Source: an uncultured Fretibacterium sp. (lineage in GTDB: Bacteria > Synergistota > Synergistia > Synergistales > Aminobacteriaceae). Taken from it: a stretch of DNA of 64,000 nucleotides. Below, piece by piece: positions 2,282 to 29,037 of the stretch. How positions within the stretch are numbered: position 1 is the stretch's first letter; each line of letters begins with the position of its first letter. Position numbers and translations under genes: made by a program. The notes under the pieces were generated by a model that saw nothing but the letters and a program-made list of their open reading frames with translations, searched no databases and was not told the DNA's origin. Location of the stretch: positions 1 through 64,000 of the forward strand of contig CAMHMH010000006.1 of assembly GCA_946186205.1 (NCBI GenBank), in the 5' to 3' direction.

Positions 2282-2345
2282 GCGCTGAAAAATCCCTCTT
2301 TCATTCATGACATTATTATTTGCGGTCAGGAGGTTTCTGTTTCAG

Positions 2346-3419
2346 ATGAATTATGATGTCTCTGTTGTTATCCCTCTGTATAACACAGAAAAGTATATCC
2401 GCCAGTGCGTTGACAGTGTTCTCGCACAAACGCTTACCAACTTTGAAATCATTATCGTTGATGACTGTTCTACAGATAACGGCCCTGCTTTATGCTCGGA
2501 GCTTTACGGAAAAAATGAGCGCGTAAAGATTGTGCATCATGACAAAAATTCAGGCTTAGGGGCATCGAGAGATACAGGCACGAAATATGCGAGCGGAAAA
2601 TATATCTGCTACGTTGACAGTGATGACGAAATTCTGCCGGATCATTTAAGCAATATGTTCGCGACGGCTGAAGAGTATGACGCTGATGTCGTGCATAACA
2701 CCCGGACTTATTCGCCGATTCCTGATGATGATGGAGCATACCCGCTCGAAATGATCGGAAGTCAAATTGTCTCGTACACTTCAGACATGAAGGAACTCAC
2801 AGAGCTTGCAGTGCTGAATGATGATCTTTCTTCCCGCCTCGATGACTGGGAAAATCACAGCTATCACTTTTGCGCATGGAACAGCCTCTACAAGAAAGCG
2901 TTCCTCAGTGAGAAGAACATTACGTTCAACGGGATGAGATACTCTGAAGATACTGTATTTTACTTTCAGTGCATGTTCAAAGCCCGGCGTTTTGTCGTGC
3001 GTCCCGGCGCAAGCTACGTATACAGACTCACAGCAGACTCATTGTCCCGTCCCCAAAATCCCGCCGAAAGACTCGTCAAGGCCATGAACGCCCAGCTTGA
3101 CATCATCAGAATCATGAAGCGAGTCACAAGCGATATGCCTTTCTTCAGGGACAGCGAGAACAATACGAGGCGCGCTGTTGATACGATACTTCTCAGCATG
3201 GAGAACGGCTTCATCAAACTTTCGTTTCAGAAATTAGGCGAGGAAGGCGCGAGAAAAGAAGAAATTGTGCATTCTTTCTTCACTGAAAATTTTGGTGAGA
3301 ATGCTCCCTATGTTGAGTTTTTATTTTACGAGCTGCACAAGATATACCCGCCCATAATTGACTACGTAGAATTGAGCAAGAATCCGCCGGAAGAATGGAG
3401 GAAAAATATCGAGAAATGA
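2346..3419 (+). CDS. GT2 family glycosyltransferase, tandem copy 1
   Basis: About 357 aa. The N-terminus DVSVVIPLYN, the metal-binding DXD-type motif VDSDDE and the downstream acidic motif YSEDTVF define a GT-A fold family 2 glycosyltransferase, which transfers a sugar from a nucleotide-sugar donor. No membrane segment is evident, so a cytosolic or peripheral enzyme. I start at ATG 2346 rather than 2307 because it has a CAGGAGG site 12 bases upstream and aligns with the start of the four following copies. First gene of an operon of five GT2 paralogues and two ABC exporter genes. It is more diverged than copies 2-4. Donor and acceptor are unknown. Confidence 0.85.
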   Translation: MNYDVSVVIPLYNTEKYIRQCVDSVLAQTLTNFEIIIVDDCSTDNGPALCSELYGKNERVKIVHHDKNSGLGASRDTGTKYASGKYICYVDSDDEILPDHLSNMFATAEEYDADVVHNTRTYSPIPDDDGAYPLEMIGSQIVSYTSDMKELTELAVLNDDLSSRLDDWENHSYHFCAWNSLYKKAFLSEKNITFNGMRYSEDTVFYFQCMFKARRFVVRPGASYVYRLTADSLSRPQNPAERLVKAMNAQLDIIRIMKRVTSDMPFFRDSENNTRRAVDTILLSMENGFIKLSFQKLGEEGARKEEIVHSFFTENFGENAPYVEFLFYELHKIYPPIIDYVELSKNPPEEWRKNIEK

Positions 3420-4525
3420 ACGCAAAAGTTTCTGTCATCGTCCCCCTGTACAACAAAAAAGATTATGTGAAGTTTGCAGTTGACAGCATATTGAATCAGA
3501 CACTCGCAGACATAGAAGTATTGATTGTTGATGACTGTTCTACAGACGGAAGCCTCGAATTATGCCGGGAGCTTTACGGCCATAACGAAAGAGTCAGGAT
3601 ACTCAAGCAGCCTCATAACATGGGGCCGGGGTCAGCCCGCAACAGAGGCATCAGCGAGGCGCACGGCAAATACATAGTCTTTGTTGACGGTGATGATGAG
3701 ATTCTGCCGGACAGGTCAAGAAAGATGTTTGAGACCGCAGAAAAGTATAATGCGGACATCGTGCACAACACAGAATTTCTTTTCCCCATTCCTGACGAGA
3801 ACGGAAATATACCCCTTCAGCTTATTGACGGCAAAGTGAAATTATTCCCCATTTCCGGCAATATTAACGGCGATGACTACACCGAGATTACGCCGCTTGG
3901 CGATGACATGTCTTCAAGGCTTGAGGACTGGAAAAACCGCCGAATTAACTGGAGCGTCTGCAGCAAAATGTTCCGCCGTGATTTTCTCGTGGACAACAGC
4001 ATATACCTTTCTGACATGAAATTTGGCGAGGATATGGTCTTCTGCTTTGAGTGCCTGTTCAAAGCAAAAAGTTATGTCATGATGCCGGGAGGAGATTACG
4101 TTTACAGGGTAATAGCTTCCTCATTGTCGAGGGCAAAGAAATCTTCAGCAAAAATTGTTACCGCGCTTCAATCCCAAATCACCGCAGTGTCAACCATGAG
4201 CAAAATCCTTAAGGATATACCTTTCTTTGTTCAGAACCCGCAGAAGGCAGTATATGCTGTTGAAAGAGTCCTTGATGACATTGAAGGAGGTTATATCAGG
4301 CCCGCTTATCAGGAACTTGGCGAGGAGACCCTCCGTTCTGACAAATTCATTCATGATTTCATGCTGTCAGAATTTGGAGACAAAGCGCCGTACGTTGAGT
4401 TTCTTTTCTACGAGCTTCACAATAATTACGAGCCTGTTATTGATTATCTCGGCCAGCTCAGTGATGTGGAAAACTTGAAGGCTTTGGCAAAAAGTTTCAG
4501 TGAAAAGGAGCATGGCAATAAATGA
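3416..4525 (+). CDS. GT2 family glycosyltransferase, tandem copy 2
   Basis: About 369 aa with the same plan as its neighbours: KVSVIVPLYN at the N-terminus, VDGDDE as DXD motif and FGEDMVFCFE as the acidic catalytic motif. The ATG at 3416 overlaps the stop of copy 1 (ATGA), with GGAGG 14 bases upstream, so translation is probably coupled; an in-frame ATG at 3395 is less likely. Copies 2, 3 and 4 share long identical stretches (for example ILNQTLA, VDDCSTD, the GPGSARNRGI region and GGYIRPAYQELGE), so they are recent duplicates. Substrates unknown. Confidence 0.85.
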   Translation: MNAKVSVIVPLYNKKDYVKFAVDSILNQTLADIEVLIVDDCSTDGSLELCRELYGHNERVRILKQPHNMGPGSARNRGISEAHGKYIVFVDGDDEILPDRSRKMFETAEKYNADIVHNTEFLFPIPDENGNIPLQLIDGKVKLFPISGNINGDDYTEITPLGDDMSSRLEDWKNRRINWSVCSKMFRRDFLVDNSIYLSDMKFGEDMVFCFECLFKAKSYVMMPGGDYVYRVIASSLSRAKKSSAKIVTALQSQITAVSTMSKILKDIPFFVQNPQKAVYAVERVLDDIEGGYIRPAYQELGEETLRSDKFIHDFMLSEFGDKAPYVEFLFYELHNNYEPVIDYLGQLSDVENLKALAKSFSEKEHGNK

Positions 4526-5631
4526 GCTGTGATGTTTCTGTCGTTGTGCCCCTGTATAACGCAAGGGAGTTAGTGAAGTTCACAGTGGACAGCATATTGA
4601 ATCAGACGCTCGCAAACATTGAAGTGCTTCTTGTTGATGACTGCTCGACAGACGGAAGCGTTGAATATTGCCGTGAGCTTTACGGCCATGATGAGAGAGT
4701 CAAAATAATTCAGCAGCCAAAGAACATGGGGCCGGGCTCGGCACGCAACAGAGGAATAAACGAGGCGCACGGGGAATATATATCCTTTGTTGACAGCGAC
4801 GATGAAATTCTCCCGGACATGTTCAGCAAGATGACAGATGTTGCGAGAAAGTACAACGCTGATGTTGTTCATGACACGAAATATTTCATGCCTCTGATTA
4901 ATGAGGACGGCAGCATTCCCCTTCAGATGATCGATGACAGCGTGAAATTATTTCCCATCTCCGGGAATGCAAGCGGTGAAGGTTACAATGAGATAACGCG
5001 GCTTAGTGATGACCTTTCAGCGAGGCTTGAAGACTGGAAGAAACGACGTATAAGCTGGAACGTGTTCGCAAAGATGTTCCGCCGTAAATTTCTTTCGGAC
5101 AACAATATACATTTCGCTGACATGAAATTTGCTGAAGATATGGTGTTCTGCTTTGAATGCTTGTTCAAGGCTAAAAATTATGTCATGATACCTCAAGAGA
5201 ATTACGTCTACAGGATGATAGGCGCATCACTTTCGAGGGCGAAAAAGACATCAGCAAAAATTGTTACGGCACTGAAAGCACAGCTCGGAGCAGTCAGCAG
5301 TATGGGCAGGATACTCAGCAGTATTCCTTTCTTCACGCAGAACAAACGCGAGGCAGTTTACGCGCTTGAAAGAGTCCTTGATGACATCGAGGGCGGTTAT
5401 ATCAGGCCTGCTTATCAGGAACTCGGTGAAAAGGCTCTGCGCTCAGACAATCTCATTCATGAATTTATGCTTGAAGAGTTCGGAGACAAAGCACCCTGCG
5501 TAGAATTTCTTTTCTATGAGCTTCACAATAATTATGCGCCTGTTATTGATTATATAGGCATGGCAGGAGACATAGAGAGCTTGAAGGCATTCGCTGAAAG
5601 TGTGCGTGAAAAGGAGAAAGGCAAGCAATGA
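4522..5631 (+). CDS. GT2 family glycosyltransferase, tandem copy 3
   Basis: 369 aa. GT-A motifs: DVSVVVPLYN, VDSDDE, FAEDMVFCFE. The start overlaps the stop of copy 2 by four bases (ATGA). It is the closest relative of copies 2 and 4 in both protein and DNA; the block around LVKFTVDSILNQ is nearly identical at the nucleotide level to copy 4. The C-terminal third (from about residue 270) is conserved between all five copies and outside the classical GT2 core, suggesting a shared acceptor-binding or oligomerisation part. Confidence 0.85.
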   Translation: MSCDVSVVVPLYNARELVKFTVDSILNQTLANIEVLLVDDCSTDGSVEYCRELYGHDERVKIIQQPKNMGPGSARNRGINEAHGEYISFVDSDDEILPDMFSKMTDVARKYNADVVHDTKYFMPLINEDGSIPLQMIDDSVKLFPISGNASGEGYNEITRLSDDLSARLEDWKKRRISWNVFAKMFRRKFLSDNNIHFADMKFAEDMVFCFECLFKAKNYVMIPQENYVYRMIGASLSRAKKTSAKIVTALKAQLGAVSSMGRILSSIPFFTQNKREAVYALERVLDDIEGGYIRPAYQELGEKALRSDNLIHEFMLEEFGDKAPCVEFLFYELHNNYAPVIDYIGMAGDIESLKAFAESVREKEKGKQ

Positions 5632-6725
5632 GCTATGATGTTTCGGCTGTTGTGCCAATGTACAACGCAAAAGAGTTAGTGAAGTTCACTGTCGACAGCA
5701 TATTGAATCAATCACTCGCTAACATTGAGGTGTTAATTGTTGATGACTGCTCGACGGATAACAGCCTCGAATTTTGCCGTGAGACTTATGGCCATGACAG
5801 CAGAGTCAAAATAATTCAGCAGCCCAAAAACATGGGGCCAGGCGCGGCTCGCAACGCTGGCATAAAAAACGCAATGGGAAAATATATTGTCTTTGTTGAC
5901 AGTGATGACGAGATTCTCCCGGACATGTTCAGCAAAATGTTTGACACTGCGGAGAAGTACAGCGCGGATATTATTCATTCAACACAATTCGTTTATGCTC
6001 TTCCTGATGAGGATGGAAATATACCCCTTCAGCTTGTTGATGACAGCGTGCAATATTTCCGAAGCACTATCGGAGGCGATTCATACAGTGAGATTACTCC
6101 GCTTAGTTATGACATGGCCGAAAGGTTTGACGGCTGGAAGAACCGCAGAATTAACTGGAGCGTTTGCGGGAAAATGTTCAGGCGTGATTTTCTTCTCGGC
6201 AATAATATATTCTTCCCTGAAATGAAATATGCTGAGGATATGATTTTCTGCTTCGCGTGCCTCTTCAAGTCAAAAAATTATGTCGTTCTCCCGGGAGGAA
6301 GCTACGTTCTCAGAATAACAGGGTCATCACTTTCAAGAGGAAAGAAATCTTCAGCAAGAATCGTTACGGCTCTCAATTCACAACTAAGAGCAGTCAGCAG
6401 CATGAGAAAAATACTTGATGAGATACCTTTCTTCGCTCAGAACCCGGAAAAGTGTATATATGCGCTTGATAAAGTAATCGATGACATCGAACGGGGGTAT
6501 ATAAGGCCGGCTTATCAGGAGCTTGGCGAGGAGGCTATACGCTCTGACAATCTCGTTCACAAATTCATGCGTGAGGAATTTGCAGAAAAAGCACCCTATG
6601 TTGAGTTCCTGTTCTATGAGCTTCACAGAATTTATGAGCCTGTTATTGATTACATAGGGCAGTCAGGAGATACAGAAGGCTTCAAAGAATTTGCGAAAAG
6701 TTTGCGTGAAAAGGAGAAAAAATAA
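5628..6725 (+). CDS. GT2 family glycosyltransferase, tandem copy 4
   Basis: 365 aa. Motifs DVSAVVPMYN, VDSDDE and YAEDMIFCFA. It begins inside the stop of copy 3 (ATGA overlap) and ends at a TAATG junction with copy 5. It shares the GGYIRPAYQELGE-type C-terminal block with small changes (RGYIRPAYQELGE). Probably adds a sugar to the same class of acceptor as its paralogues, but with changed specificity; this is inference from duplication only. Confidence 0.85.
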   Translation: MSYDVSAVVPMYNAKELVKFTVDSILNQSLANIEVLIVDDCSTDNSLEFCRETYGHDSRVKIIQQPKNMGPGAARNAGIKNAMGKYIVFVDSDDEILPDMFSKMFDTAEKYSADIIHSTQFVYALPDEDGNIPLQLVDDSVQYFRSTIGGDSYSEITPLSYDMAERFDGWKNRRINWSVCGKMFRRDFLLGNNIFFPEMKYAEDMIFCFACLFKSKNYVVLPGGSYVLRITGSSLSRGKKSSARIVTALNSQLRAVSSMRKILDEIPFFAQNPEKCIYALDKVIDDIERGYIRPAYQELGEEAIRSDNLVHKFMREEFAEKAPYVEFLFYELHRIYEPVIDYIGQSGDTEGFKEFAKSLREKEKK

Positions 6726-7861
6726 TGAGCTGTGATGTTTCTGTCGTAGTGCCAATGTACAACGCCGGGAAATTCATACGTCCATGCGTTGGCAGTGCGC
6801 TGAACCAGACAATGAAAAATATTGAGGTGATTATCGTTGATGACAGGTCGACAGATAACAGCCTTAATTTATGCCGCGAGATTTACGGGGGCAATGAGAG
6901 AGTGAAGATATTCCAGCAGCCTGTGAATCACGGACCGGGCGCGGCCCGCAACAGGGGGATAAGAGAAGCAAGCGGGGAATATATTGCCTTCCTCGACAGC
7001 GACGACGAAATTATGCCCGAACAACTTCAGAAAATGTTCTCTGCCGCAAAAGAACATGATGCCGATGTCCTTCACAATGACTCGCTGAGAATTATGCTGC
7101 CTCTTGAGGATGATACTATACCCGCTGAAATGCTCAGCCATCCAGACAACATAATCATAAACAAAATGGACATAGGAGAAGGAATAAAAGACATTCAGAC
7201 ACTCCCGGCGGATCTGTCGCAGAGATTCAGCCGATGGAAGAATGGCGGACTTCACTGCCACGTGGGCAATAAACTTTTCCGGCGGTCATTGATTGCTGAT
7301 AATGCTCTGAGCTTCCCTGAAGCTAAACTGCAAGGAGGTACTATGCTGTCTGAAGATGACCTCTTCTGCCTTCAGTGCCTTCTTGCCGCAAAAAATTATG
7401 TCCTCATGCCGGGAGGATGGTACGTTATACGCTTCAATGACACTTCAGCTACAAGAATAGCAAAAACAGTAACAAAAATCATCAATGCTGTAGGCTCTCA
7501 GTTAGAGGTCATAAAAAGCCTCAGAGAAATATCTGAAAGAATACCATTCCTTAAGGACAAAGCTAACTTCACCGCCGCTGTGAATACCATCCTCAAAACA
7601 ACTGAAGATTTTGCCGTCAGGCCTAACTATCAGGAAGCAGGTCAGCAACTACTGAGAGATGACGAAGCTTTATCAGCATTCTTCAATGAGGAGTTCGGCG
7701 AAAACGCTCCGTACGTTGAGTTCTTGTTCTTCCAGCTCCATGAAACTTATCCAAAGCTCCCGAAGTTATTCGTGCTTGACCATGACGCTATGGACAAGGT
7801 AAGGCGCGCTTTCAAAGAAGCTAAAGAAGCCGGCAGAGAATTTATCATGGAACGCAAGTAA
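6725..7861 (+). CDS. GT2 family glycosyltransferase, tandem copy 5
   Basis: 378 aa, the most diverged of copies 2-5. GT-A motifs DVSVVVPMYN, LDSDDE and LSEDDLFCLQ are intact. It contains a short insertion before the acidic motif (near AKLQGGTM) and an altered sugar-side segment (WYVIRFNDTSATR in place of DYVYRV..SLSR). The start codon overlaps the previous stop by one base (TAATG). It is followed after eight bases by the first ABC gene, so glycosylation and export are probably co-transcribed. Confidence 0.85.
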   Translation: MSCDVSVVVPMYNAGKFIRPCVGSALNQTMKNIEVIIVDDRSTDNSLNLCREIYGGNERVKIFQQPVNHGPGAARNRGIREASGEYIAFLDSDDEIMPEQLQKMFSAAKEHDADVLHNDSLRIMLPLEDDTIPAEMLSHPDNIIINKMDIGEGIKDIQTLPADLSQRFSRWKNGGLHCHVGNKLFRRSLIADNALSFPEAKLQGGTMLSEDDLFCLQCLLAAKNYVLMPGGWYVIRFNDTSATRIAKTVTKIINAVGSQLEVIKSLREISERIPFLKDKANFTAAVNTILKTTEDFAVRPNYQEAGQQLLRDDEALSAFFNEEFGENAPYVEFLFFQLHETYPKLPKLFVLDHDAMDKVRRAFKEAKEAGREFIMERK

Positions 7862-7869
7862 TTCAGGAA

Positions 7870-9618
7870 ATGAATACTATACTCAAATACATACGCCGCC
7901 GTGAATGGCTCTTCATTGCCGCCGCTTTGCTCTTCACTGCCGCCCAGGTTAAACTTGAACTCCTTTTCCCTGAATACTTGAAGAATATTACTCTCCTCAT
8001 TCAGTCAGAAACTATTGATTTCCATGTCCTCAAAATATCATGCCTCAAAATGTTCGCGTTCGTCGCTGGAGCACTGATTTGCTCCGTCCTCACTGTGCTG
8101 TCCGTCGCGCTTCCGTCTTCTGTCATCACCTCAAGAATAAGGCAGGGAGTTTTCGACAAAATCATGGACTTCTCGCTTGAGGAAGTTGCGAAATTTTCAA
8201 CTCCTAGCTTAATCACAAGATGCACTTTTGACGTTATGCAGATTCAGTTCTTCTTTTCCGCCGCTCCTCCTATGCTTGCCCGCGCACTTTTCACAGGATG
8301 TATGGCAACTGCAGGGATATTAGGCAAAAATATAATCTGGACTTCAATAACAGGAGGCTCCGTAGCATTAATGCTCATGGTCATAATATGCCTGATTATT
8401 TTTCTGACACCGGCTACAATGAAAGTCAACAAGCTCACAGACAAGCTAAACAGAATCAGCCTCGAACATTTGACAGGGCTTCGTGTGCTTCATGCTTACA
8501 ACGCTTACGAGTTTCAGCAGAAAAAATTTGACGGCGTTAATGACGCAATCGCTGACACAAATATATACATCAATAACAGAATGGCTCTCATGTATCCGTC
8601 TGTAACTCTTTTCACTAATGTTACTTTCCTGCTGATATATTTCTCAGGCGTATTCATTCTCCAGCCTGAAGGCAAAACGCAAAACCTTCAGGCGTTCTCC
8701 GACATGATAGCCGCTGTGTCATATGCTGGGCAGGCAATATTCGCGTTCTTCTCTCTGACATATCTTCTTATGCTGACACCAAGGGTCATAGCCTCATCGA
8801 GACGCATCAATGAAGTACTAAGCGAGGACATAAAGATTAAGGACGGCGGGGGAGTATCAGTCAGCAAAAATGACACGGGCAGGGTAGAATTTCGCAATGT
8901 ATCATTCAGATACCCCGGAGCAGTCAAAGACGCTTTGAGCGGAATAACTTTCACAGTATCACCCGGGCAGACCGCCGCGATTATCGGCCCTACAGGCTCA
9001 GGCAAAACTTCTATTCTCAATCTCATTCCAAGACTCTATGACGCTACAGAAGGCGAGGTGTTAATTGACGGGTTCAGCGTGAAAGACTTCAAACTTAATG
9101 ACCTGCGTGAAAGGCTCGGCTATGTTCCTCAGAAGACTATGCTGTTCTCAATGACTATCGCTGAAAATATCGGGTACGGCGAAAGCTCAAGGTTCATATC
9201 AACCCTCGAACACATAAAGGAAGCCGCAGAGACCGGGCAGGCAAGAGAATTTATCGAGGCTCAGGAAGCAGGATACAATACGCAGGTTCAGCAGGGCGGG
9301 AAAAATTTTTCAGGAGGACAAAGACAGAGACTCACAATATCACGCGCAGTAAACCGTAACCCGGAAATATATATCTTTGATGACTCATTCTCAGCGCTTG
9401 ACTTCAAGACCGACAAAATCTTGCGCGCAAAACTACGTGAAACAGCAGGAAACGCCACAATAATTATAGTAGCCCAGAGAATCAGCACAATCAGGAACGC
9501 CGATAAAATTATCGTTCTCGACAAAGGACGCATCGCAGGGACAGGAACGCATGAAGAGCTTATGTCATCCTGCGGAATTTACAGAGAGATGGCAGAGTCC
9601 CAGTCAATCACACAGTAA
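7870..9618 (+). CDS. ABC exporter half-transporter, degenerate-site subunit
   Basis: 582 aa: an N-terminal transmembrane domain (about 1-310, six predicted helices) and a C-terminal nucleotide-binding domain. Walker A is GPTGSGKT and the signature is FSGGQRQR. Walker B ends in FDDSFSALD, so the catalytic glutamate is replaced by aspartate. In heterodimeric exporters of the TM287/288 or BmrCD type this marks the non-hydrolytic site. It pairs with the next gene, which has the complementary changes. Export of a lipid-linked or hydrophobic glycoside made by the upstream GT2 genes is a reasonable guess; drug export is the alternative. Confidence 0.85.
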   Translation: MNTILKYIRRREWLFIAAALLFTAAQVKLELLFPEYLKNITLLIQSETIDFHVLKISCLKMFAFVAGALICSVLTVLSVALPSSVITSRIRQGVFDKIMDFSLEEVAKFSTPSLITRCTFDVMQIQFFFSAAPPMLARALFTGCMATAGILGKNIIWTSITGGSVALMLMVIICLIIFLTPATMKVNKLTDKLNRISLEHLTGLRVLHAYNAYEFQQKKFDGVNDAIADTNIYINNRMALMYPSVTLFTNVTFLLIYFSGVFILQPEGKTQNLQAFSDMIAAVSYAGQAIFAFFSLTYLLMLTPRVIASSRRINEVLSEDIKIKDGGGVSVSKNDTGRVEFRNVSFRYPGAVKDALSGITFTVSPGQTAAIIGPTGSGKTSILNLIPRLYDATEGEVLIDGFSVKDFKLNDLRERLGYVPQKTMLFSMTIAENIGYGESSRFISTLEHIKEAAETGQAREFIEAQEAGYNTQVQQGGKNFSGGQRQRLTISRAVNRNPEIYIFDDSFSALDFKTDKILRAKLRETAGNATIIIVAQRISTIRNADKIIVLDKGRIAGTGTHEELMSSCGIYREMAESQSITQ

Positions 9619-9634
9619 GGAGCGGCGAAAAATT

Positions 9635-11380
9635 ATGTCAGTCCTAAAATTAATCATGCGCATATCAGCCTACGTAAAGAAATACCGCTTCAAATTGCTG
9701 GCGGCGTTCGTTTGCACTGCAGCAGGGTCATTGATGAATGTCGCATTCCCTGAAGTCGTAAGGCAAATCACTGACACTATTGCGGCTGGACTAAGCTCAT
9801 CCATAGACGTACCGGCTGTGATACGTTATTCGCTCGCTGGTTTGCTTCTTACGGCAGGGGGGTTCGTATTCTTGTTTTTGCAGAGCGCAATACTCCCGCA
9901 AGTCTCGCAGTTAATGAGCCGTGATATTCGCAGGGACATGAACAGGAAGACAGACAGAATACCGCTGTCATATTTCGACACGAGGCAGAACGGAGACACT
10001 TTGAGCCGAATAACTACTGACGTTGATATTTTCACGAACGCCGTTACGAATAACATCAGCGGGATAATATCATCTGTTGTTACGCTCGCGGGGTCATTGG
10101 CCATGATGCTCTACATCAACGTGATACTTACGCTTATAGTAGCGGCATTAAGCATAACATTCTTCACGCTGAACGCATTCCTGATGAGAAAGAGCCAGCC
10201 TTACTTCAATTCACAGCAGGAGCTTCTCGGAACGGTCAACGCAAAAGCAGAGGAAGCTATATCCGGCCATCTGGCAATAAAATCTTTCGGCGGCGAGAAC
10301 GGAGCAAAAAAAGATTTCTCAGAAAGCAACAGCAAACTTGCAAAAGACGCATGGATTTCACAGTTTGTTTCAGGAATGATGATGCCAATAATGAACGCGG
10401 GCGGGCTTTTCTGCCATGTTGCTGTAGTATGCTCCGGCGTTTTCCTGATGCTTCACAATGCAAGCGGCGTAACAATAGGCGTTATTGTTGCGTTCGTAAA
10501 CTATTCGGGAATATTCTCATCTGTTCTCACGAGCATTTCGCAGTTCATCTCGTCGCTTCAGCCGGCATTTTCGGCAACAGGGAGAATAATAGAGTTTCTT
10601 GACGCAGAAGAGTTCATAGAGAATGAATCAGGCAAAGTATTAGACAGTGTGAAAGGTGATATAACATTCTCTGATGTAAAGTTCGGATATGTGAAGGACA
10701 AAATAATAATTCACGGCTTCTCGGCAGACGTAAAAGCCGGGAGCAAAGTCGCAATCGTCGGCCCTACAGGAGCAGGGAAAAGCACGGTGATAAATCTTCT
10801 GTTGAGGTTCTACGAGCTTGACGGAGGTGAAATTCTTATCGACGGGATTTCTATTGCCGACTTGAAGCGTAGAAACCTTCATGAATTTATCGGTCTAGTT
10901 CCACAAGATATATGGACGTTTGAAGGCTCAATCCGGGATAACATAACGTACTCAAATGACAATGTATCAGATGAAAAACTTGATGAGATACTCAAAGCGT
11001 CAGGGCTGATGTATTTCGTAAGTGCGATGCCTGAAGGAGTAAATACGGTAATCAATGAGCAGTCAAACCTTTCAGCGGGACAAAGACAGCTCATAACAAT
11101 AGCCAGAGCGATGGCAAAAAATTCACCGATACTGATACTTGACGAGGCGACATCATCAGTAGACACGAGGACGGAGAAAATCATACAGTCAGCACTTGAT
11201 ACGCTCATGGCCGGAAGAACATCATTCATAATCGCTCACAGGCTCTCAACAATTCAGAACGCCGATTTGATTCTTGTCATGAAGGACGGGAATATAGTAG
11301 AGACTGGGAAGCATGACGAACTCCTAGCCATGAACGGAGTATATGCTGACATTTACCGCAGTCAGTTCGACACAAAATAA
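9635..11380 (+). CDS. ABC exporter half-transporter, catalytic partner subunit
   Basis: About 581 aa. Six-helix membrane domain followed by a nucleotide-binding domain with Walker A GPTGAGKS, signature LSAGQRQL and Walker B LILDEATSSVD with the catalytic glutamate present. The altered signature (LSAGQ) would face the degenerate Walker site of the partner, exactly the asymmetric arrangement of heterodimeric ABC exporters. I start at ATG 9635, which has AAGGAG upstream (about 9616-9621), not at the longer frame from 9551 that overlaps the previous gene by 68 bases. The stop abuts the stop of the convergent tolC-like gene; no terminator is visible between them. Confidence 0.85.
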   Translation: MSVLKLIMRISAYVKKYRFKLLAAFVCTAAGSLMNVAFPEVVRQITDTIAAGLSSSIDVPAVIRYSLAGLLLTAGGFVFLFLQSAILPQVSQLMSRDIRRDMNRKTDRIPLSYFDTRQNGDTLSRITTDVDIFTNAVTNNISGIISSVVTLAGSLAMMLYINVILTLIVAALSITFFTLNAFLMRKSQPYFNSQQELLGTVNAKAEEAISGHLAIKSFGGENGAKKDFSESNSKLAKDAWISQFVSGMMMPIMNAGGLFCHVAVVCSGVFLMLHNASGVTIGVIVAFVNYSGIFSSVLTSISQFISSLQPAFSATGRIIEFLDAEEFIENESGKVLDSVKGDITFSDVKFGYVKDKIIIHGFSADVKAGSKVAIVGPTGAGKSTVINLLLRFYELDGGEILIDGISIADLKRRNLHEFIGLVPQDIWTFEGSIRDNITYSNDNVSDEKLDEILKASGLMYFVSAMPEGVNTVINEQSNLSAGQRQLITIARAMAKNSPILILDEATSSVDTRTEKIIQSALDTLMAGRTSFIIAHRLSTIQNADLILVMKDGNIVETGKHDELLAMNGVYADIYRSQFDTK

Positions 11381-17190: not shown

Positions 17191-17211
17191 TGCACATAAA
17201 CTCAAAGAGAA

Positions 17212-18735
17212 ATGCAAGTGGTAGAAATGATAAAGACAGAAAGCGGAAAAGTCTCAGGAGCAATGACGAGTGATAAAGCTGTAATAATCTTCAAAGGCAT
17301 TCCCTACGCGGCATCACCAGAAGGCCGTCTCAGGTGGAAAGCCCCCGAAAAATTCCCCTCATGGCCGAATATCCGTGAATGCACAAATTTTTCTCCCAGT
17401 GCAATACAGCCGCCGCAATCACCGTTCTTAATGTGGACAGAAGAGTTCATCATTGACACTTCAAGAGGATACTCAGAGGACTCACTCTCGCTGAATATAT
17501 TCTGCCCTTCAGACGTGAATGTGAAAGGGAAGCCCGTAATAGTATATTTTCACGGAGGGAACTTTGTGTCAGGCGGGAACTCCTACGACATATACGACGG
17601 AGAACAGTTAGCGAGGCATGGAGTAATATTTGTAGTAGTAAATTTTCGTGTGGGCATACTCGGACTTCTTTCCTGTTCTGAACTCTCAAGTGAGAACCCT
17701 GAAAAAATTTCTGGAAACTATCAGCTGCTTGACCAAATAGCCGCGCTGAAATGGGTAAGGGATAACATAGCTTCATTCGGGGGAGACCCTGAGAATGTTA
17801 CGATAATGGGTCAGTCATCTGGAGCAGCATCGGTATGTACGCTTTCAGTTTCACCGATGGCGTGTAATTTGTTCCGGCGTGTATTTGCGATGAGCCATGA
17901 CACATTGAACATGCCTATATCATTTGTGCCAGACGATTGCGGTAGGATACATCCTGTAGATTTGTACAAGCCGCAGAAAGAATGCGAAAGCGAAGGAGAT
18001 AAAGTTCTTTGCGGGCGTAGTATTGATGAAATGCGCTCGCTGCCTCCTAGTGAGCTTCTGAAAATGCCAGAGTTTTACTCGTACAGTATTGACGGCCATG
18101 TACTGACGGGTACATTCAAAGACGGAGTAATGTCTGGGCTGACGGATAAATATGATTTTATGTTGACGTACACATACAGCAATAATATGTGGAGCGACTG
18201 CGGAATGTTTGCGATAATGACGGACGTAACGAACAAAGAAAGCTATGAGTCATCAATGTGTAATTTCTTTGGTGAAAATGCTGACCGTGCCATGAGACTT
18301 TATCCCTTTACCGGAAATGCTGAAGAGTTTGTGCTGAGAATATCGCACGACAGGTACGCGGCAAGTATGATGATGCTTGCGATGTTGAGGAGGAAATCTA
18401 ATACATGGTTAGGTGAGTTCCGGCACGTAATGCCCGGTCCAGAGTCAGATAAATGGGGAGCGTTTCACACGTCGGATGTACCGTACTGGCTCAATCATTT
18501 TTCGGATGTGAGAAAAGAATACTGGCGTGATGAAGATTACGAGCTTGGGAATGAACTTGTAACGAGGTTAGCGGGATTTGCGAAAACGGGAAGGCCTGAA
18601 GCTGATAATCTGCCTTCGTGGAAGCCGTCTGACGGAAACAGCCTGTACATAATCGGCGCAGGAGTGATGAAGGAGATACAGCCGCTGGACGATGAAAGAA
18701 ATAATTTGTGGAGGGAAGTATATTGCGTGAATTAG
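17212..18735 (+). CDS. Carboxylesterase type B family protein
   Basis: 507 aa, alpha/beta hydrolase. Visible motifs: oxyanion-hole HGGNF (114-118), nucleophile elbow GQSSG with Ser202, and a catalytic His in GAFHTSDVPYW (about residue 419). Usual length for the family. It hydrolyses carboxylic esters of unknown structure. No signal peptide, so cytosolic. Start at ATG 17212 is tentative; ATG 17227 is the alternative and neither has a strong ribosome site. First gene of a four-gene operon with acyltransferase, ligase and GT2-GH3 genes; it may trim or proofread an acylated intermediate. Confidence 0.85.
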   Translation: MQVVEMIKTESGKVSGAMTSDKAVIIFKGIPYAASPEGRLRWKAPEKFPSWPNIRECTNFSPSAIQPPQSPFLMWTEEFIIDTSRGYSEDSLSLNIFCPSDVNVKGKPVIVYFHGGNFVSGGNSYDIYDGEQLARHGVIFVVVNFRVGILGLLSCSELSSENPEKISGNYQLLDQIAALKWVRDNIASFGGDPENVTIMGQSSGAASVCTLSVSPMACNLFRRVFAMSHDTLNMPISFVPDDCGRIHPVDLYKPQKECESEGDKVLCGRSIDEMRSLPPSELLKMPEFYSYSIDGHVLTGTFKDGVMSGLTDKYDFMLTYTYSNNMWSDCGMFAIMTDVTNKESYESSMCNFFGENADRAMRLYPFTGNAEEFVLRISHDRYAASMMMLAMLRRKSNTWLGEFRHVMPGPESDKWGAFHTSDVPYWLNHFSDVRKEYWRDEDYELGNELVTRLAGFAKTGRPEADNLPSWKPSDGNSLYIIGAGVMKEIQPLDDERNNLWREVYCVN

Positions 18736-20027
18736 GGGTATCGGACAAATATTTTTACTACACGGCATCCGGTTCAGGGATGACAATGGACATAAGGTTA
18801 AAACTAGTCTTCAAGACAGCTGTGAATCATGAGGCGTTAATAGCGGCGGCAGATGATGCATTGAGGTTGTACCCTGAGTATTCAGTTCGTACGGTGCTGA
18901 AGGACGGAAGATTATTCTACGAGGAGAATCGCAATCACGTAGCAATTCTTCCAGCAGAGAATAGGTATGATTTTGGCACAGATGATATGAACGGATACTT
19001 GTTCTGCTTTCAGTGCGACTCGTCGAAAGAAAATGAGGTAACATTCTCCATATATCACGGTCTGTCAGACTGGAACGGGCTAAGCCGATTTGTGAAGGCA
19101 GTAATATGCCGTTATGCAGTGCACGTGAAGGGACTTACGGAAGATTACTTCAAAGGAGTGATACGTTCTGAAGCACCTGACAAAAGCGAATGGGAAAACG
19201 AAGCGAACCTGAACCCCTACGAGTATTATGCGAGCAAGGATGCAATACCATCATACAAGCTCGAAATGCCAGATGATATATTCACGCTTCCAGAAGAGAA
19301 TTACAGCTTTGCTTCACCGTCAGCCAGAATAATACGCATAACGCTCAGCACATCACAATTCTTGAAGTCAGCAAAGGGTAATAACACGAGCTTTGTACCA
19401 TACCTTTTGTACGTTGCCTCAAGCGCAATACGTGAAGCATACGACACCGACAAGAATATATTTATGGGATTTCCTGCAGATCTCCGCAGGGTGTTCAACG
19501 CTGAAACGATAGTGAATTTTTCTGAGTCTGTATTTCTGCCTTCAAGCGTTAAGGAATATGCCTTGCGGATAGAGGAACAATGCAGAGATTTCCGTGAGCT
19601 AATAAACCTTCAGAGGAGGCCAGAGAATTTTGCTGTACTTCTGTACGACAAATCGCAGCGACTCAGAGGATTTGAGTCATCGCCTGAAGGAATAATTGCC
19701 AAGAGCCGCGAGCTTACCACACAGACATCAGAGCTTGTAAAATCCATCACAATGGGAATAACATATCCGGGAATACTTAACATGCCAGAAGGTGCAGACG
19801 ACCTTTTAGAGAGTATAATAATGTATTCCCCGTTCGGAGTATCGTTTCTGCAAATTACGACATACCGCGATGAGATGAGCATAACATCAGTGCAGCGTTA
19901 CGATGGCGACAAGTTAGTGAACTCGATATGCGAAAAGCTGAGTGAAGCAGGTATAGAGTCAAAAATAGCGGACAACGTGCTAATAGCTCACAACATTTTG
20001 AATCTTGAAAGGTTGAAGAGAGTGTAA
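18723..20027 (+). CDS. CAT/condensation-fold acyltransferase-like protein
   Basis: About 434 aa. The sequence resembles BAHD/alcohol acetyltransferase and condensation-domain proteins of the chloramphenicol-acetyltransferase fold: an N-terminal half ending in YHGLSDWNG (HxxxD catalytic motif with the first His of HHxxxDG changed to Tyr) and a C-terminal half with the expected long linker. Likely transfers an acyl group from CoA or a carrier to an alcohol or amine. I prefer TTG 18723, eight bases after GGAGG and overlapping the esterase stop; GTG 18708 is the other possible start but has no such site. The family call is from motif and layout, so moderate. Confidence 0.6.
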   Translation: MRELGVSDKYFYYTASGSGMTMDIRLKLVFKTAVNHEALIAAADDALRLYPEYSVRTVLKDGRLFYEENRNHVAILPAENRYDFGTDDMNGYLFCFQCDSSKENEVTFSIYHGLSDWNGLSRFVKAVICRYAVHVKGLTEDYFKGVIRSEAPDKSEWENEANLNPYEYYASKDAIPSYKLEMPDDIFTLPEENYSFASPSARIIRITLSTSQFLKSAKGNNTSFVPYLLYVASSAIREAYDTDKNIFMGFPADLRRVFNAETIVNFSESVFLPSSVKEYALRIEEQCRDFRELINLQRRPENFAVLLYDKSQRLRGFESSPEGIIAKSRELTTQTSELVKSITMGITYPGILNMPEGADDLLESIIMYSPFGVSFLQITTYRDEMSITSVQRYDGDKLVNSICEKLSEAGIESKIADNVLIAHNILNLERLKRV

Positions 20028-22016
20028 ATGAAATTCACGGAGCAGAAATACTACGACATACTTCAAGAGAACGCGAAGAGACATCCTGACAAGCCTGCGA
20101 TAGTTATGGGAGAAAAACGCCTTAGCTATTCGGACTTGATGATGAAGATAGATAAAGTGTCATCATTTCTTGTTGAGCATGGAATGAAGAGCGGAGATCA
20201 TGTAGTGCTTTGGTCAAGCGGTTGTTCTGAATGGCTGTGTGTGTATTATGGGATAATACATGCCGGGGGAGTAGCGGTGTGCCTGAACTCGAATTACACT
20301 GTAGAAGATGTAACGCCGTTAGTAACGTTTGCGGACAGCAAGTATGCTTTTTACGGGACGACGCATGACACAAAGGGCGAAAGTTCTGAGGCGGAATCAT
20401 TAGCCAAGTCATTCGGTCTTAGTGAGGAAAAATTGTTCTCGATATTTGAGACTGATTTTGACTCTGCGACTCTGAGAGAGATAGACGACACAAGAGATGT
20501 GCATGATGACGCATACATAATATACACGTCAGGTACGACAGCATTTCCGAAAGCAGTACTTACTTCACAATATTCGATGATAAATACGGTATTGAGGACA
20601 GCAGAAGAGTGCAAGACCCTTCACGGTGATAAAGCATGTGTTGCGCTTCCATTGTTCCATGCGTTTGGTCTTGGAGTGCCATGTATGTATTTGAGTCTTG
20701 GAGGAACGGTATACATTCCCGAAAAAGTGAAGGCACAGGACATAGCCGACATAGTGAACCGCGAACGGATTACAGATTTGTGGTCAGTAGGAGCGGTCTT
20801 TCAGAGCATAATAGACAGCAAAGAGTTCATGGACAAATGCGCGCCGTTCATAAGGATGTGCGCGATCGCCGGAAGCTACACAAGCCCGATGCAGTTCACG
20901 AGGTTTGAAGCGGCACTGAATCATTCGACGTTCCTGAACATGTTCGGAATGACAGAGACATCTTGCGTTTTCATAATGGCTCGACCTGAAGACTCTGTGC
21001 AGGTACGTTACAACACGATAGGCCGGAGCGTTCCAGATGTAGAGATAGGAATCTATGACGAGAATCGCGGCATTCTCCCATCTGGTGAAGTAGGCGAGCT
21101 AGTAACGAGGGGTTTTCACCTAAAGAACAGCTACTACAAACTGCCGGCAGAGAAGCAATCCATCGACAAAGACGGCTGGTTTCACACTGGTGACCTTGGA
21201 GTCATGGATGATGAAGGCAACGTGCGCATTATGGGACGTATCAAGGACATAATCATAAAGGGCGGGGAAAACATCACACCCAGCGAAATAGAAGCGGAAG
21301 CAATCAACGTACCCGGCGTGAAAGAGTGCAAAGTATTCGGCTTCAAAGACAGGCTTTACGGTGAAAACTTAGGGGCTTGCATAAGGCTTGAGGAAGGCGC
21401 GAAATTTGACGAGAACGCGGCAAGGAAATATCTTCGCGACAAAATAGGCTCGTTCAAAGTCCCGGCGTATTTCTTCATATATGACGCATTCCCCCTTAAC
21501 GCGACGGGAAAAATTGACCAGAGGACTCTTCACACCGACATGCTGAAACGTCTGCGTAAAATGGAACTTGATGATGAGCTTGAAAAGGGAGTGCGAGTTC
21601 TTGAAGTCGGCATAAAGAATACTTCATATGCAATTATTCCGCTAGTGTCGATGGTTGAGAAGTATGCGCTTGCATTCGGCTTCAATTCCAAGAGAGCCGC
21701 CCGTATAAGACTGGCCTGCGAGGAAATGCTCACAGAAAGGATACTGAATGCGTTTGAGGATGTCGGAGATATATATCTTTACTGCACATGCTTAAGGGAT
21801 TTCATGAGGATTACGTTTGAGGACAGCGGTCAGTTGTACGACTTTGAGAAACAGCGCAAGAAGAGCGACAGCGCAAAGATAATCTCATTTGTTGCTGATG
21901 ACATGTCCATAACCAGAAAGCGCGACTCGAACATGACATCATACAATCTTGACTTCATATACAGCAGTGATTTTGACGTAACGGAATTTCTAGCCTCACA
22001 TGAGCGTCTTGCGTAG
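20028..22016 (+). CDS. AMP-dependent acyl-CoA synthetase-type enzyme fused to an RsbW-like HATPase domain
   Basis: 662 aa. Residues 1-505 are an adenylate-forming ligase: YTSGTTAFPK (166-175), FGMTETS (306-312), GWFHTGDLG (383-391), GRIKDIIIKGGE (403-414) and the catalytic lysine in NATGKID (Lys495). It activates a carboxylic acid as acyl-AMP and probably passes it to CoA. Residues about 530-650 are extra: RLACEEMLTERILNAF and ITFEDSGQLYDF line up with the N-box and G1 box of GHKL/RsbW-type ATPases, although the key Asn appears replaced by Glu. The start abuts the previous stop. Tail role unknown: regulatory, ATP-sensing or protein-binding. Confidence 0.85.
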   Translation: MKFTEQKYYDILQENAKRHPDKPAIVMGEKRLSYSDLMMKIDKVSSFLVEHGMKSGDHVVLWSSGCSEWLCVYYGIIHAGGVAVCLNSNYTVEDVTPLVTFADSKYAFYGTTHDTKGESSEAESLAKSFGLSEEKLFSIFETDFDSATLREIDDTRDVHDDAYIIYTSGTTAFPKAVLTSQYSMINTVLRTAEECKTLHGDKACVALPLFHAFGLGVPCMYLSLGGTVYIPEKVKAQDIADIVNRERITDLWSVGAVFQSIIDSKEFMDKCAPFIRMCAIAGSYTSPMQFTRFEAALNHSTFLNMFGMTETSCVFIMARPEDSVQVRYNTIGRSVPDVEIGIYDENRGILPSGEVGELVTRGFHLKNSYYKLPAEKQSIDKDGWFHTGDLGVMDDEGNVRIMGRIKDIIIKGGENITPSEIEAEAINVPGVKECKVFGFKDRLYGENLGACIRLEEGAKFDENAARKYLRDKIGSFKVPAYFFIYDAFPLNATGKIDQRTLHTDMLKRLRKMELDDELEKGVRVLEVGIKNTSYAIIPLVSMVEKYALAFGFNSKRAARIRLACEEMLTERILNAFEDVGDIYLYCTCLRDFMRITFEDSGQLYDFEKQRKKSDSAKIISFVADDMSITRKRDSNMTSYNLDFIYSSDFDVTEFLASHERLA

Positions 22017-22051: not shown

Positions 22052-24664
22052 ATGAAAAGGTATGAGGTTTCAATTATAACCCCGCTTCACAACGTTGGTC
22101 TTCACATGTTCAAGAGGACAATTGAGTCAGTGAAGAATCAGACACTCGGCTTTGAGAATATCGAGTGGGTAGTAGTCATTCATAACTCAGCGGAAGAATA
22201 CGAGCGTCAGGTTCTTGAGCTTCTCAAGGGTTATGAGAATGTGAGGGCAGAGATACTCCACGACTCGCACAATTCGCCTTCGAGTCCTCGTAACATGGGT
22301 CTTGATTTGGCTACCGGAGAATACATCGGCATACTTGACGGCGATGACATGTACACGCCCGACTGTCTCAAGACAGCATTGCGGCACATCAAGAGGACAG
22401 GCGCGGACATTTGCGTTTTCCGCCGTGAAGTAGAGCTTGAGAGTGAAACATCATTACTGCTGAACGAGGTAGTATTATGGGATCAGACGCGTGAAGAAAT
22501 AGTTGTGAACCGGGACAACTGGGACGGCAAAAAGATATTCTGCGGCATGTGGGGAATGGTTACGCACAAGCTATACAGGGCAGACTTCATCAAGAAAAAT
22601 AATCTTCGCTTCGACCCGTCAATAGAGTTTGCGGAGGATTGCGCTTTCAGTGTCAACGCATACGGCAAGGCAGGGAATATATGTCTTCTTCCTCAGCTGA
22701 TAGGGTATGTGTATTTCGTGAACAGCGCGTCGGGTGTTCAGTCCGGTGGAAATGAGAATGACGCAAGGCTTCTGAGATTCGCGGAGGGTTTCAAGAAGAT
22801 TTGCGACACGCTTCTTCATTACGGTTTTTATGCGGATGATACGATAGCGCATTTATTGATGTTCGAGGGAGCATTCATGCTGAAGAAGGGAAACGTAGCC
22901 GAAGAAGTGCGGCGTAAGATCTTTGAGCTTCTGACCCCCTACGCAAAAGTCATCAAGCCTCTTGAGCCGTCAAAATTATATCCTCCCCGTCAGATAGATG
23001 ACCTGAACAACATGGTGAAATATTTTCTGTCGGATGAGAATGCGTCGGAAATATCAGCGGAGGGTCTTCTCTACTATGACAAGCGTACATTGCCTGAAAC
23101 AGTGCAGGATTACCAGATACGTGCGCTGTATAACATACTGGAGAACGGCGGAAAATCAGATTACGGACTGCGCTACGATTTCTCCGACATAAGCACGACA
23201 GGGGGATACCGTTCACTTCTTCCGCTGACGAATTACGACATGTACCAGCCAATGATAGACTTGGCGAGGCGCATTGACGAGTCATCTATCTTCACGGACG
23301 AAAATATTACCGGCTACATGCTGTCTTATGGCCGCGTCGGAGTCCCCAAGAGGCTGCCAGTAACACAAAAGCATCTTGCGCCGTACCTGAAAGAAATGGA
23401 GAGAATGTTATCGGGCAAAAAAGTTTTCTTCATGGCCGAAAGCCTGAGACATCGTAGTCCCGTTCTCAATCTCGACACGAAATATACAAGCACATTGACG
23501 GGGCTTATTCTCTCAGAGTTCTACAATGACAATCTGCGAGTGAGCCTTTCACGGAAGAGAGCAGACATCACTACGCCTGCTGAACTCTTATTCCCCGATG
23601 AGCTTATGGAGCTTGAGTACCCGCGGTTGTTCTTTGCGCTCCGAGAGAAGGACATAACGACAATTTACGCTCCGAACGCAGGTATATTCCTAGACAGTAT
23701 GCACCGACTCGCTAAAGACTGGGAGAAACTCTGCGATGACATTGAAGCCGGACGAATAAGCGAGCTTAAACGATTCCCGGATGACAAACGCAAGAAGCTC
23801 AACAGCCGCATAGCTCCTGACCCTGAAAGAGCAAAGGAACTCCGCAAGATTTTCACCTCATGCAAGGACGGAAACATATTGCCTCTTGTCAAAGATATTT
23901 GGCCTTCGCTCGTTGAAATAATTGCTGACGGAACCGGGAGCAATGCGATTTACGCGGACATAATCCGGGACAACATGAGGCACATAAAATTCAACAATAA
24001 TTTTCTTGCAACGGAGGAAGCCTTCATTGCCCGGTCAGTTCCCAACACCGACATGTACGAGCTTGATTTGTCGGCGAATTTCTATGAGTTCATGCCGCTG
24101 ACAGGAGGTGAGACCGTCGCAGCACATGAGCTTGAACCGGGTGGAGAATACCGCGTAATAGTGTCAGGTTATTCAGGGCTTTACAGGTACTGCACAAATG
24201 TACTTGTGCGGTGTGAGGAAGTCAGCAAAGATACAGTAACGGTGAGCAAGCTCTGCCCGAGGGACTATGACATTCAGTCGATGGAGGGCATAACGGAAGA
24301 GAAAGTGTACAGCGCGGTGAAAATGTTCGTGAGGAAATCGGACATTCAGACAGCGGATTACATCTTCATATATGACGGAGAAAATGAAAGCTACAGCTTG
24401 GTGCTTGAGCCTGCGTATTCAGGGGACAACTTCAAGAGGGCTTCGGAAATGTCCCAGTCAGACAAAGACGACATAGCAAAAGAATGCGCCAATATCTTGG
24501 GAACATCAAAGCCGGTGAGAATACTCTTCAACGAACCCGGAACGCACGCGCTTCACACAGAAATGATACAGTACCGCCGGAAAATTCTTCAGGATGCAAT
24601 AAGGCCGTATCATGTAGCGGATGATGTTTTAGACGGGAGCTTCTTCCTGAAACTGACGGTGTAA
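22052..24664 (+). CDS. GT2 glycosyltransferase fused to a GH3-like acyl-amido synthetase domain
   Basis: 870 aa. Residues 1-230 are a GT2 domain (VSIITPLHN, LDGDDM at 95-100, FAEDCAF at 193-199). After a helical linker (about 240-350), residues about 352-865 match the GH3 adenylate-forming family: an entry block with YNILENGGKSDYG, the FYEFMP motif (677-682), YSGLYRY (707-713) and a typical C-terminal HxEMIQYRRKI-like end. GH3 enzymes join an amino acid or amine to an acyl acid through acyl-AMP. The usual SSGTT-type phosphate loop is replaced by SYGRVGVPK (425-433), so activity is uncertain. Last gene of its operon, before a strong terminator. The GT2 half is related to the upstream tandem GT2 genes in fold only. 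Confidence 0.8.
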   Translation: MKRYEVSIITPLHNVGLHMFKRTIESVKNQTLGFENIEWVVVIHNSAEEYERQVLELLKGYENVRAEILHDSHNSPSSPRNMGLDLATGEYIGILDGDDMYTPDCLKTALRHIKRTGADICVFRREVELESETSLLLNEVVLWDQTREEIVVNRDNWDGKKIFCGMWGMVTHKLYRADFIKKNNLRFDPSIEFAEDCAFSVNAYGKAGNICLLPQLIGYVYFVNSASGVQSGGNENDARLLRFAEGFKKICDTLLHYGFYADDTIAHLLMFEGAFMLKKGNVAEEVRRKIFELLTPYAKVIKPLEPSKLYPPRQIDDLNNMVKYFLSDENASEISAEGLLYYDKRTLPETVQDYQIRALYNILENGGKSDYGLRYDFSDISTTGGYRSLLPLTNYDMYQPMIDLARRIDESSIFTDENITGYMLSYGRVGVPKRLPVTQKHLAPYLKEMERMLSGKKVFFMAESLRHRSPVLNLDTKYTSTLTGLILSEFYNDNLRVSLSRKRADITTPAELLFPDELMELEYPRLFFALREKDITTIYAPNAGIFLDSMHRLAKDWEKLCDDIEAGRISELKRFPDDKRKKLNSRIAPDPERAKELRKIFTSCKDGNILPLVKDIWPSLVEIIADGTGSNAIYADIIRDNMRHIKFNNNFLATEEAFIARSVPNTDMYELDLSANFYEFMPLTGGETVAAHELEPGGEYRVIVSGYSGLYRYCTNVLVRCEEVSKDTVTVSKLCPRDYDIQSMEGITEEKVYSAVKMFVRKSDIQTADYIFIYDGENESYSLVLEPAYSGDNFKRASEMSQSDKDDIAKECANILGTSKPVRILFNEPGTHALHTEMIQYRRKILQDAIRPYHVADDVLDGSFFLKLTV

Positions 24665-24695
24665 CAATCTCACGCAAAAGAAAGAACATACACAG

Positions 24696-24730
24696 CCCGG
24701 TTATGAACGACATAGCCGGGTTTATTTTTT
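24696..24730 (+). terminator. Intrinsic terminator of the esterase/GT2-GH3 operon
   Basis: CCCGGTTATG (24696-24705), five-base loop, CATAGCCGGG (24711-24720): a 10-bp stem with one G-U pair, followed by TTTATTTTTT. Confidence 0.9.
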
Positions 24731-25585: not shown

Positions 25586-25921
25586 ATGGCGGAGAACTCC
25601 ACAATCGCTGAGATAAAAGCTACTGAGACTCAAGCCGCTAATGCTGTTCAGAAAGCAAAGGAGGACGCTGCGAAGAAACTCAACCGCGCAACTTCAGACG
25701 CAGAAAATTCACTCAAGGAAGCAAGGCAGAACGCAGCCCGGCAATTCCGCGACAAGATCCGCAGGGCAGAAGAGGCAGCCGAGACAAGAGCAAAGGCTAT
25801 ACTCGCGAAACGTGAATCAGACGCGCAGGCTTTCTACGAGAAGCACAAGGACAAGATCCCGGCAGCTGCTTCATTCATAATGGAAGAGGTGATGAAAAAA
25901 TATGGGAGTAGCCAGGCTTAA
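25586..25921 (+). CDS. V/A-type ATPase subunit G/H (peripheral stalk)
   Basis: 111 aa, Ala/Lys/Glu-rich, almost wholly helical coiled coil, as in the small stalk subunit that pairs with subunit E to hold the catalytic head. Identified by position (first gene before subunit I, as in the Thermus operon) and composition. Ribosome site GGAGGTGAG before ATG 25586. Overlaps the next gene by 20 bases. Confidence 0.75.
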   Translation: MAENSTIAEIKATETQAANAVQKAKEDAAKKLNRATSDAENSLKEARQNAARQFRDKIRRAEEAAETRAKAILAKRESDAQAFYEKHKDKIPAAASFIMEEVMKKYGSSQA

Positions 25922-27899: not shown

Positions 27900-27938
27900 A
27901 TCAGTAACAAAATATTTATTCACGAAAGGAACGTGTAA

Positions 27939-28427
<489 letters not shown>

Positions 28428-28445
28428 TCGGGCAGGTGTTGAAGA

Positions 28446-29024
28446 ATGGCACTTGCAGACATCAAAGCAAAAATCAAAGCAGAATCACAGGCGCAAATAA
28501 AAGCATTAGAGGCGGAGAATGACGCGAAAGTCCGCGAGATAAGCCGCAAAGTAAACGCCGAAATCAAAGAGGTTCAAGACTCATACGCAGCAAGACTCGG
28601 ACGTGAAGAGCCTGAAGTTTTGAGACGGCGCGAGATAGTAGCAGAGCTTGACGCGAAACGTGTTGACTTGGGAGTCCGTCAGCAGCTGATGAGTGAAGCA
28701 TTTGACGCGGCACTTGCTCAGATGACAGCGATGGCACCGGACAAGTACGTTAAGTTTGCGGACAAGTTGCTTGCTCAGGCAGTCGTAACAGGAAGTGAAG
28801 TTGTCTTTGTCGGCAAGAACGAGAAGAATTTAGACCAGCGATGGCTTGACGGCTACAACGCTTCCCATAACACAAAGCTGACTCTTTCGGGCGACAGGCT
28901 GCCGATTTCGGGCGGATTCGTTCTCAGGAATGACAGAGTAGATACAAATTGTTCGTGGGAAATGCTCATTGCTGACTCCCGCGCTGACATTGAGACCGAA
29001 GTTGTGAAACGGTTGTTTGCGTAA
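28446..29024 (+). CDS. atpE: V/A-type ATPase subunit E (peripheral stalk)
   Basis: 192 aa. A long helical N-terminus rich in Lys, Glu and Ala (residues 1-75), then a globular domain with the subunit E signature near the C-terminus (GGFVLRNDRVDTNCSWE). Together with the G/H subunit it forms the peripheral stalk. Start ATG 28446, 18 bases after the K gene. Confidence 0.88.
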   Translation: MALADIKAKIKAESQAQIKALEAENDAKVREISRKVNAEIKEVQDSYAARLGREEPEVLRRREIVAELDAKRVDLGVRQQLMSEAFDAALAQMTAMAPDKYVKFADKLLAQAVVTGSEVVFVGKNEKNLDQRWLDGYNASHNTKLTLSGDRLPISGGFVLRNDRVDTNCSWEMLIADSRADIETEVVKRLFA

Positions 29025-29037
29025 GGGGGTGCCGGCT

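Follow-up and report, generated by a model that had tools for sequence, protein, structure and literature searches.

The closest described systems are the wall-teichoic-acid GT2 glycosyltransferases and enzymes of the GH3 family. Among the former, TarS is composed of a catalytic domain (residues 1-319), a linker (320-352) and a trimerization domain (353-573), with D178 as its proposed catalytic base (PMC5156392). In the bacterial GH3 enzyme OlsH, S115, the second residue of ATP motif I, is essential (PMC12493201). Both kinds of domain are present in a single 870-aa open reading frame, without internal stop, in the genome of an uncultured Fretibacterium sp. (Synergistaceae). Here, the window refers to the whole stretch of DNA that was analyzed, 64,000 nucleotides of contig CAMHMH010000006.1. 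An initial annotation of this DNA had described the frame as an intact GT2 domain joined to a full-length GH3 domain, and had stated that no enzyme with this pairing was known. We found no paper describing a GT2-GH3 fusion, and as far as the literature searched shows, the architecture is undescribed.

The presence of GT2 and GH3 domains in one polypeptide was confirmed as a genuine fusion by Pfam, AlphaFold2 and PDB fold matches. The open reading frame is preceded by AGGTG, resembling a ribosome-binding site, 7 nt upstream of the ATG, and encodes the only GH3 protein in the source genome (G000, 2.75 Mb). Profile searches matched Glycos_transf_2 (PF00535) at residues 7-140 (E 1.5e-20, 74.3 bits against a cut-off of 23.3), the GH3 N-terminal domain (PF03321) at residues 350-644 (E 2.2e-38, 132.7 bits) and GH3_M (PF23571) at residues 674-725 (E 2e-9, 37.8 bits). 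The GH3_C model was not matched in a Pfam search of the full 870 aa; the C-terminal lid was recognized by fold, the alignments of the predicted model to GH3.12 and GH3.15 extending to its last residue, 870. This refines the initial description of a full-length GH3 domain. AlphaFold2, run with a 35-member alignment, gave two well-formed domains, one of GT2 and one of GH3 fold (pLDDT 87.1, pTM 0.81). The DGDD, ED, FYEF (residues 677-680) and GLYRY (709-713) motifs that had been named were all located. Coordinates of all features are given in Table 1.

Table 1 Features of the GT2-GH3 gene and its surroundings, in window coordinates
Feature	Position	Strand	Basis or remark
Five tandem GT2 glycosyltransferases, probable wider-cluster part	2307..7861	+	Four GT2 then two ABC genes in G003
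ABC exporter half-transporter pair, probable wider-cluster part	7870..11380	+	PF00664+PF00005
Carboxylesterase, 507 aa, conserved neighbor	17212..18735	+	PF00135 1.6e-81; in 9 loci
CAT/condensation/PapA5-like acyltransferase, 439 aa, HGLSD (H117, D121)	18708..20027	+	AlphaFold2 pLDDT 92.9; Foldseek
AMP-forming acyl-CoA ligase, 662 aa, adenylation motifs intact (YTSGTT, TGKID)	20028..22016	+	PF00501 4.7e-69, PF13193 5.5e-12
GT2-GH3 fusion protein, 870 aa	22052..24664	+	Pfam, AlphaFold2; conserved in relatives
GT2 (GT-A) catalytic domain and C-terminal helical bundle, residues 1-324	22052..23023	+	PF00535; TarP/TarS/RmlT fold
DGDD metal/nucleotide-sugar motif, residues 96-99	22337..22348	+	D96, D98, D99 conserved 34/34
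ED motif, residues 195-196, putative catalytic base D196	22634..22639	+	E195 34/34, D196 33/34
Linker, residues 325-349, low confidence/disordered	23024..23098	+	pLDDT <50 at 324-343
GH3-like domain, residues 350-870	23099..24661	+	PF03321, PF23571; GH3.11/GH3.12/GH3.15 fold
Eroded GH3 ATP motif I, LSYGRVGVPK, residues 424-433	23321..23350	+	Y426; Ser in 20/23 stand-alone GH3
Altered GH3 ATP motif II, LATEE, residues 652-656	24005..24019	+	Ser of SE replaced by Glu655; Glu656 kept
GH3 motif III, GLYRYCTNV, residues 709-717	24176..24202	+	GLYRY kept; motif Asp replaced by V717
Terminator-like hairpin, operon end	24694..24722	+	Stem 12 bp and TATTTTTTGC tail (T tract), 30 nt past GT2-GH3 stop

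Structural comparison placed each half with a known family. The best PDB folds for the GT2 half were TarP, TarS and RmlT, with Z scores of 27-28.5 over residues ~3-330 (~290-300 aligned), and TarP was also its best PDB match by sequence (4e-12, phmmer). Its catalytic Asp residues are conserved in 33-34 of 34 family members (Table 1), and the GT2 half apparently works as a sugar transferase. For the GH3 half (residues 347-870), the best folds were GH3.11 (Z 38.7), GH3.12 (Z 38.0) and GH3.15 (Z 37.6), with plant GH3 proteins in the range of 36-39. A chance match was ruled out by the E value of 2e-38 and by GH3 being the best PDB match in both sequence and fold.

Related fusions are found well beyond this genus. 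A scan of genome contigs with the single sequence returned no matches, and an alignment-based profile scan of ~85,000 prokaryote genomes returned 47 related loci, mostly from metagenome assemblies with incomplete flanks. The carriers belong to Synergistota, Bacillota, Bacteroidota and Actinomycetota, and most come from rumen or gut; Lachnospiraceae, Selenomonadaceae, Coriobacteriaceae, Ruminococcus, Blautia, Prevotella and other Bacteroidales are all represented. Prevotella sp. tf2-5 and Lachnospiraceae KH1P17 are among them as named strains. Of the relatives with a name, the closest are metagenome assemblies of Synergistaceae/Fretibacterium from ruminant guts and other guts, and fusions in Synergistota of the same genus are 81% (G010), 67% (G003), 47% (G032) and 38% (G009) identical to the window protein; partial or broken copies occur in G089, G013 and G092. 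GH3 and GH3_M domains were matched in 35 of 35 aligned members and GT2 in 34, the exception (L049) being cut by a contig end. In the G010 copy (L046:8902-11223) a stop lies at codon 775, and in the G092 copy (L052/L099) the frame breaks in the GT2 part; either could reflect decay or sequencing error.

The recurrence of the junction also settles whether an assembly or frame error near residue 350 could have fused two separate genes. Nothing in the window itself favors such an artefact. The defects of G010 and G092 belong to copies of this fusion that have decayed or were miscalled, and the junction recurs in genomes from several phyla that were assembled independently, the two named strains among them. 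An artefact is thereby refuted, and its likelihood is negligible.

All fused GH3 halves group in a single clade (support 100/100), which indicates that the fusion arose once. The only nominally stand-alone protein within this clade, L135, begins with fusion-linker sequence at the end of its contig and is itself a cut fusion. Synergistaceae members are scattered in the clade, with the window group adjoining Lachnospiraceae, Ruminococcus and Blautia, and L006 and L049 grouping with the Selenomonadaceae member L061; this placement in separate parts of the clade implies repeated horizontal transfer. No plasmid-borne copy covering 80% of the protein was found in PLSDB. Stand-alone GH3 genes in other Synergistota (L055, L056 and L057) lie beside genes that by eye resemble radical-SAM/B12-type genes, and in L055 and L057 motif I takes the distinct form TGGSGGG.

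Fused and stand-alone GH3 domains differ at the ATP site. The initial annotation had noted that the SSGTT loop is replaced by SYGRVGVPK, and this replacement is present at residues 425-433 of the window protein, where SYGR (425-428) departs from the [ST]SG[ST] pattern of motif I. Tyr426 corresponds to the essential S115 of OlsH (PMC12493201). In alignment columns, Ser426 was retained in 7 of 37 fused GH3 halves versus 20 of 23 stand-alone proteins, and Asp717 of motif III in 6 of 37 versus 22 of 23; the alignment at motif I has a short-gap ambiguity, while motif III is anchored by GLYRY and is independent of the gap. Across eight ATP-site columns, conservation dropped by 0.58, against an average of 0.18 for columns of similar conservation, and none of 20,000 random sets of such columns reached this value (maximum 0.476). 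The FYEF and GLYRY motifs are still highly conserved across the fused clade, and P391, W617, E679, G709 and R712 are invariant. All three ATP motifs are intact in only three of the 37 fused members (L083, L084 and L064). Fourteen of the 37 stop before the C-terminal lid, at a stop codon inside the contig rather than at its end, and the lid has been lost, along with the P-loop or its motif, from the proteins of Prevotella and of several Firmicutes.

Purifying selection acts on the GT2 and the GH3 half of the window gene alike. Compared to G010, dN/dS was 0.10 for the GT2 half and 0.13-0.20 for parts of the GH3 half; compared to G003, for which dS is near saturation, the values were 0.18 and 0.07-0.13. 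The possibility that the GH3 half is a decaying pseudogene was ruled out by these low values (0.07-0.20) and by reading frames that are kept, with the exceptions of G010 and G092. Retention of the fold under purifying selection, together with erosion of the ATP motifs, suggests that the GH3 domain has been retained for a role other than normal adenylation.

The genes adjacent to the fusion encode predicted functions in acyl activation and transfer. In the window, the operon order is carboxylesterase, acyltransferase, acyl-CoA ligase and GT2-GH3. The acyltransferase matched no Pfam family, and the NCBIfam PapA5 model was reached, with an E value of 0.009, in only 1 of 19 members. A Foldseek search with its model returned PapA5 as the best match (6.8e-17) along with NRPS condensation domains, and H117 and D121 of the HxxxD motif were invariant in all 19 members. 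Residues ~515-662 of the acyl-CoA ligase resemble a degenerate HATPase_c_2 domain of RsbW-type anti-sigma kinases, although below the cut-off (E 0.041). Cluster relatives carry fusions of HATPase_c_2 with a MATE transporter (L099) and of a STAS domain with an APH-type kinase (L006); these suggest that partner-switching parts were recruited to the pathway.

Further upstream, a block of GT2 genes (five in the window, four in G003) is followed by two ABC exporter genes in the same order in both genomes, and this block is a probable part of the same pathway, judging by synteny only. An RND efflux system (outer-membrane factor, pump and adaptor; 11381-17217, minus strand) separates the GT2/ABC block from the GT2-GH3 operon, and has the same place in G003. 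A V-type ATPase operon is located downstream of the cluster (25586-34212).

Across loci, the recurrent neighbors were the acyltransferase (15 loci), AMP-forming ligases or NRPS (14), ABC exporters (14), APH or STAS-APH kinases (10) and carboxylesterases (9). Multimodular NRPS are encoded in Prevotella and Blautia-type loci, one of them ending in a thioester-reductase domain. NRPS composed of A-T-C units adjoin GT2-GH3 in Prevotella, Blautia-like and Colinaster loci (L073, L085, L087, L089, L095 and L101), with the terminal thioester reductase in L073:7418-13492. In several of these loci, ATP-grasp ligase paralogues and a gene of the tyrosine-phosphatase family come next (L089:13493-14308, L101:12124-13476). 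All 14 loci with a neighboring CoA ligase or NRPS have eroded GH3 motifs, and no such neighbor was seen at the three intact loci, flanks being incomplete. Overall, the predicted gene content of the cluster is most consistent with a pathway in which an acyl or peptidyl group is activated, the acyl group is transferred, and the product is glycosylated and exported.

We therefore favor, as the more probable account, that the protein is a GT2 glycosyltransferase in which the GH3 part no longer adenylates and has come to serve as a binding or scaffold domain, in an undescribed pathway for an exported acylated glycoconjugate. The ancestral fusion may have paired a sugar transferase with an acyl-amido synthetase that still worked. 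The GH3 half of most descendants would no longer adenylate but would hold the acyl, aryl or aminoacyl part of an acceptor, or scaffold a complex, and the GT2 half would add sugar to the acceptor so held. The acyl group would be activated by the neighboring CoA ligase in the window and by NRPS modules in relatives, and then transferred by the PapA5/condensation-like enzyme. The acyl product would be glycosylated by the GT2-GH3 protein and the other GT2s, and the ABC pair would export the resulting glycoconjugate. The acceptor could be a polymer, a lipid or a peptide, and the fusion probably helps to build an exported sugar-lipid or sugar-peptide molecule. A binding role for the GH3 half is suggested by the loss of ATP motifs. 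The initial annotation had considered a different nucleotide or carrier, or a binding domain, and the further erosion at V717 and LATEE favors the latter.

It is unlikely, in our judgment, that the GH3 half has kept acyl-acid amido synthetase activity through a divergent nucleotide loop, with amide ligation and glycosylation combined by the protein on one molecule. Pseudoenzymes with divergent motifs sometimes keep activity, and the fold with its lid, purifying selection, the retained GLYRY and FYEF motifs and the three members with all ATP motifs would each fit an active enzyme. Glu656 of motif II and the complete fold with lid also persist in the window lineage, which counts against repurposing, as it is not obvious why a pure scaffold would need them. 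An active ligase is, however, difficult to reconcile with replacement of the essential P-loop Ser by Tyr and of the motif III Asp by Val, with weak conservation of most motif columns in the fused clade, and with the missing lid of many members. In addition, the adjoining gene encodes an intact ligase; activation and transfer could be supplied by this CoA ligase and the condensation-type acyltransferase. The coupling of sugar transfer to amide ligation by its own GH3 half, as first proposed for this protein, is not supported and is unlikely here, but would be possible for L083, L084 and L064.

An improbable variant is that the GH3 half binds no ligand and serves as an oligomerization scaffold in place of a TarS-like trimerization domain. 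It occupies the same position in the chain and varies in length, as such a scaffold might, but the invariant P391, W617, E679, G709 and R712 and the conserved GLYRY and FYEF motifs suggest more than a spacer. More tentatively than the binding-domain account, and still doubtful as a whole, the family could represent a new bifunctional class in gut bacteria. L083, L084 and L064 would adenylate and ligate an acyl group or amino acid and then glycosylate, and the ligase half would have turned to substrate holding in the window protein and most relatives. The products would be exported, possibly NRPS-derived glycolipids or glycopeptides, with the genes shared horizontally across gut phyla.

With a single origin and a spread over gut and rumen bacteria of four phyla, GT2-GH3 genes mark uncharacterized biosynthetic clusters, the product of which could be an unrecognized gut metabolite or surface glycolipid. 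The members grade from GH3 domains that by motif are intact for adenylation to those lacking both motifs and lid, with the glycosyltransferase constant, and offer a natural set for testing how an enzyme domain changes into a binding domain.

Compared to known systems, the GH3 half has the full fold and the GLYRY and FYEF motifs of plant GH3 acyl-acid amido synthetases (JAR1/GH3.11, GH3.12 and GH3.15), but is only ~18-21% identical to them, lacks ATP motifs I and III and is fused to GT2. OlsH, a lyso-ornithine lipid synthetase, is likewise a bacterial member of the GH3 family and is partnered with an alpha/beta hydrolase (PMC12493201); the window operon holds a carboxylesterase of alpha/beta-hydrolase fold. 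The window protein differs from OlsH in lacking the essential Ser of motif I and in its fusion to GT2, and membership in the OlsH family was ruled out by a score of 17.1 bits against the NCBIfam NF052613 cut-off of 620. The neighboring acyltransferase shares its fold and HxxxD motif with PapA5 and NRPS condensation domains, but has no matching Pfam family. The GT2 half shares with TarP, TarS and RmlT the GT-A fold, a DxDD-type motif, the catalytic Asp, the C-terminal helical bundle and the linker; at ~16-21% identity this likeness is one of fold and sequence and does not imply the same acceptor. In place of the C-terminal trimerization and carbohydrate-binding domain of TarS, the window protein has a GH3 fold.
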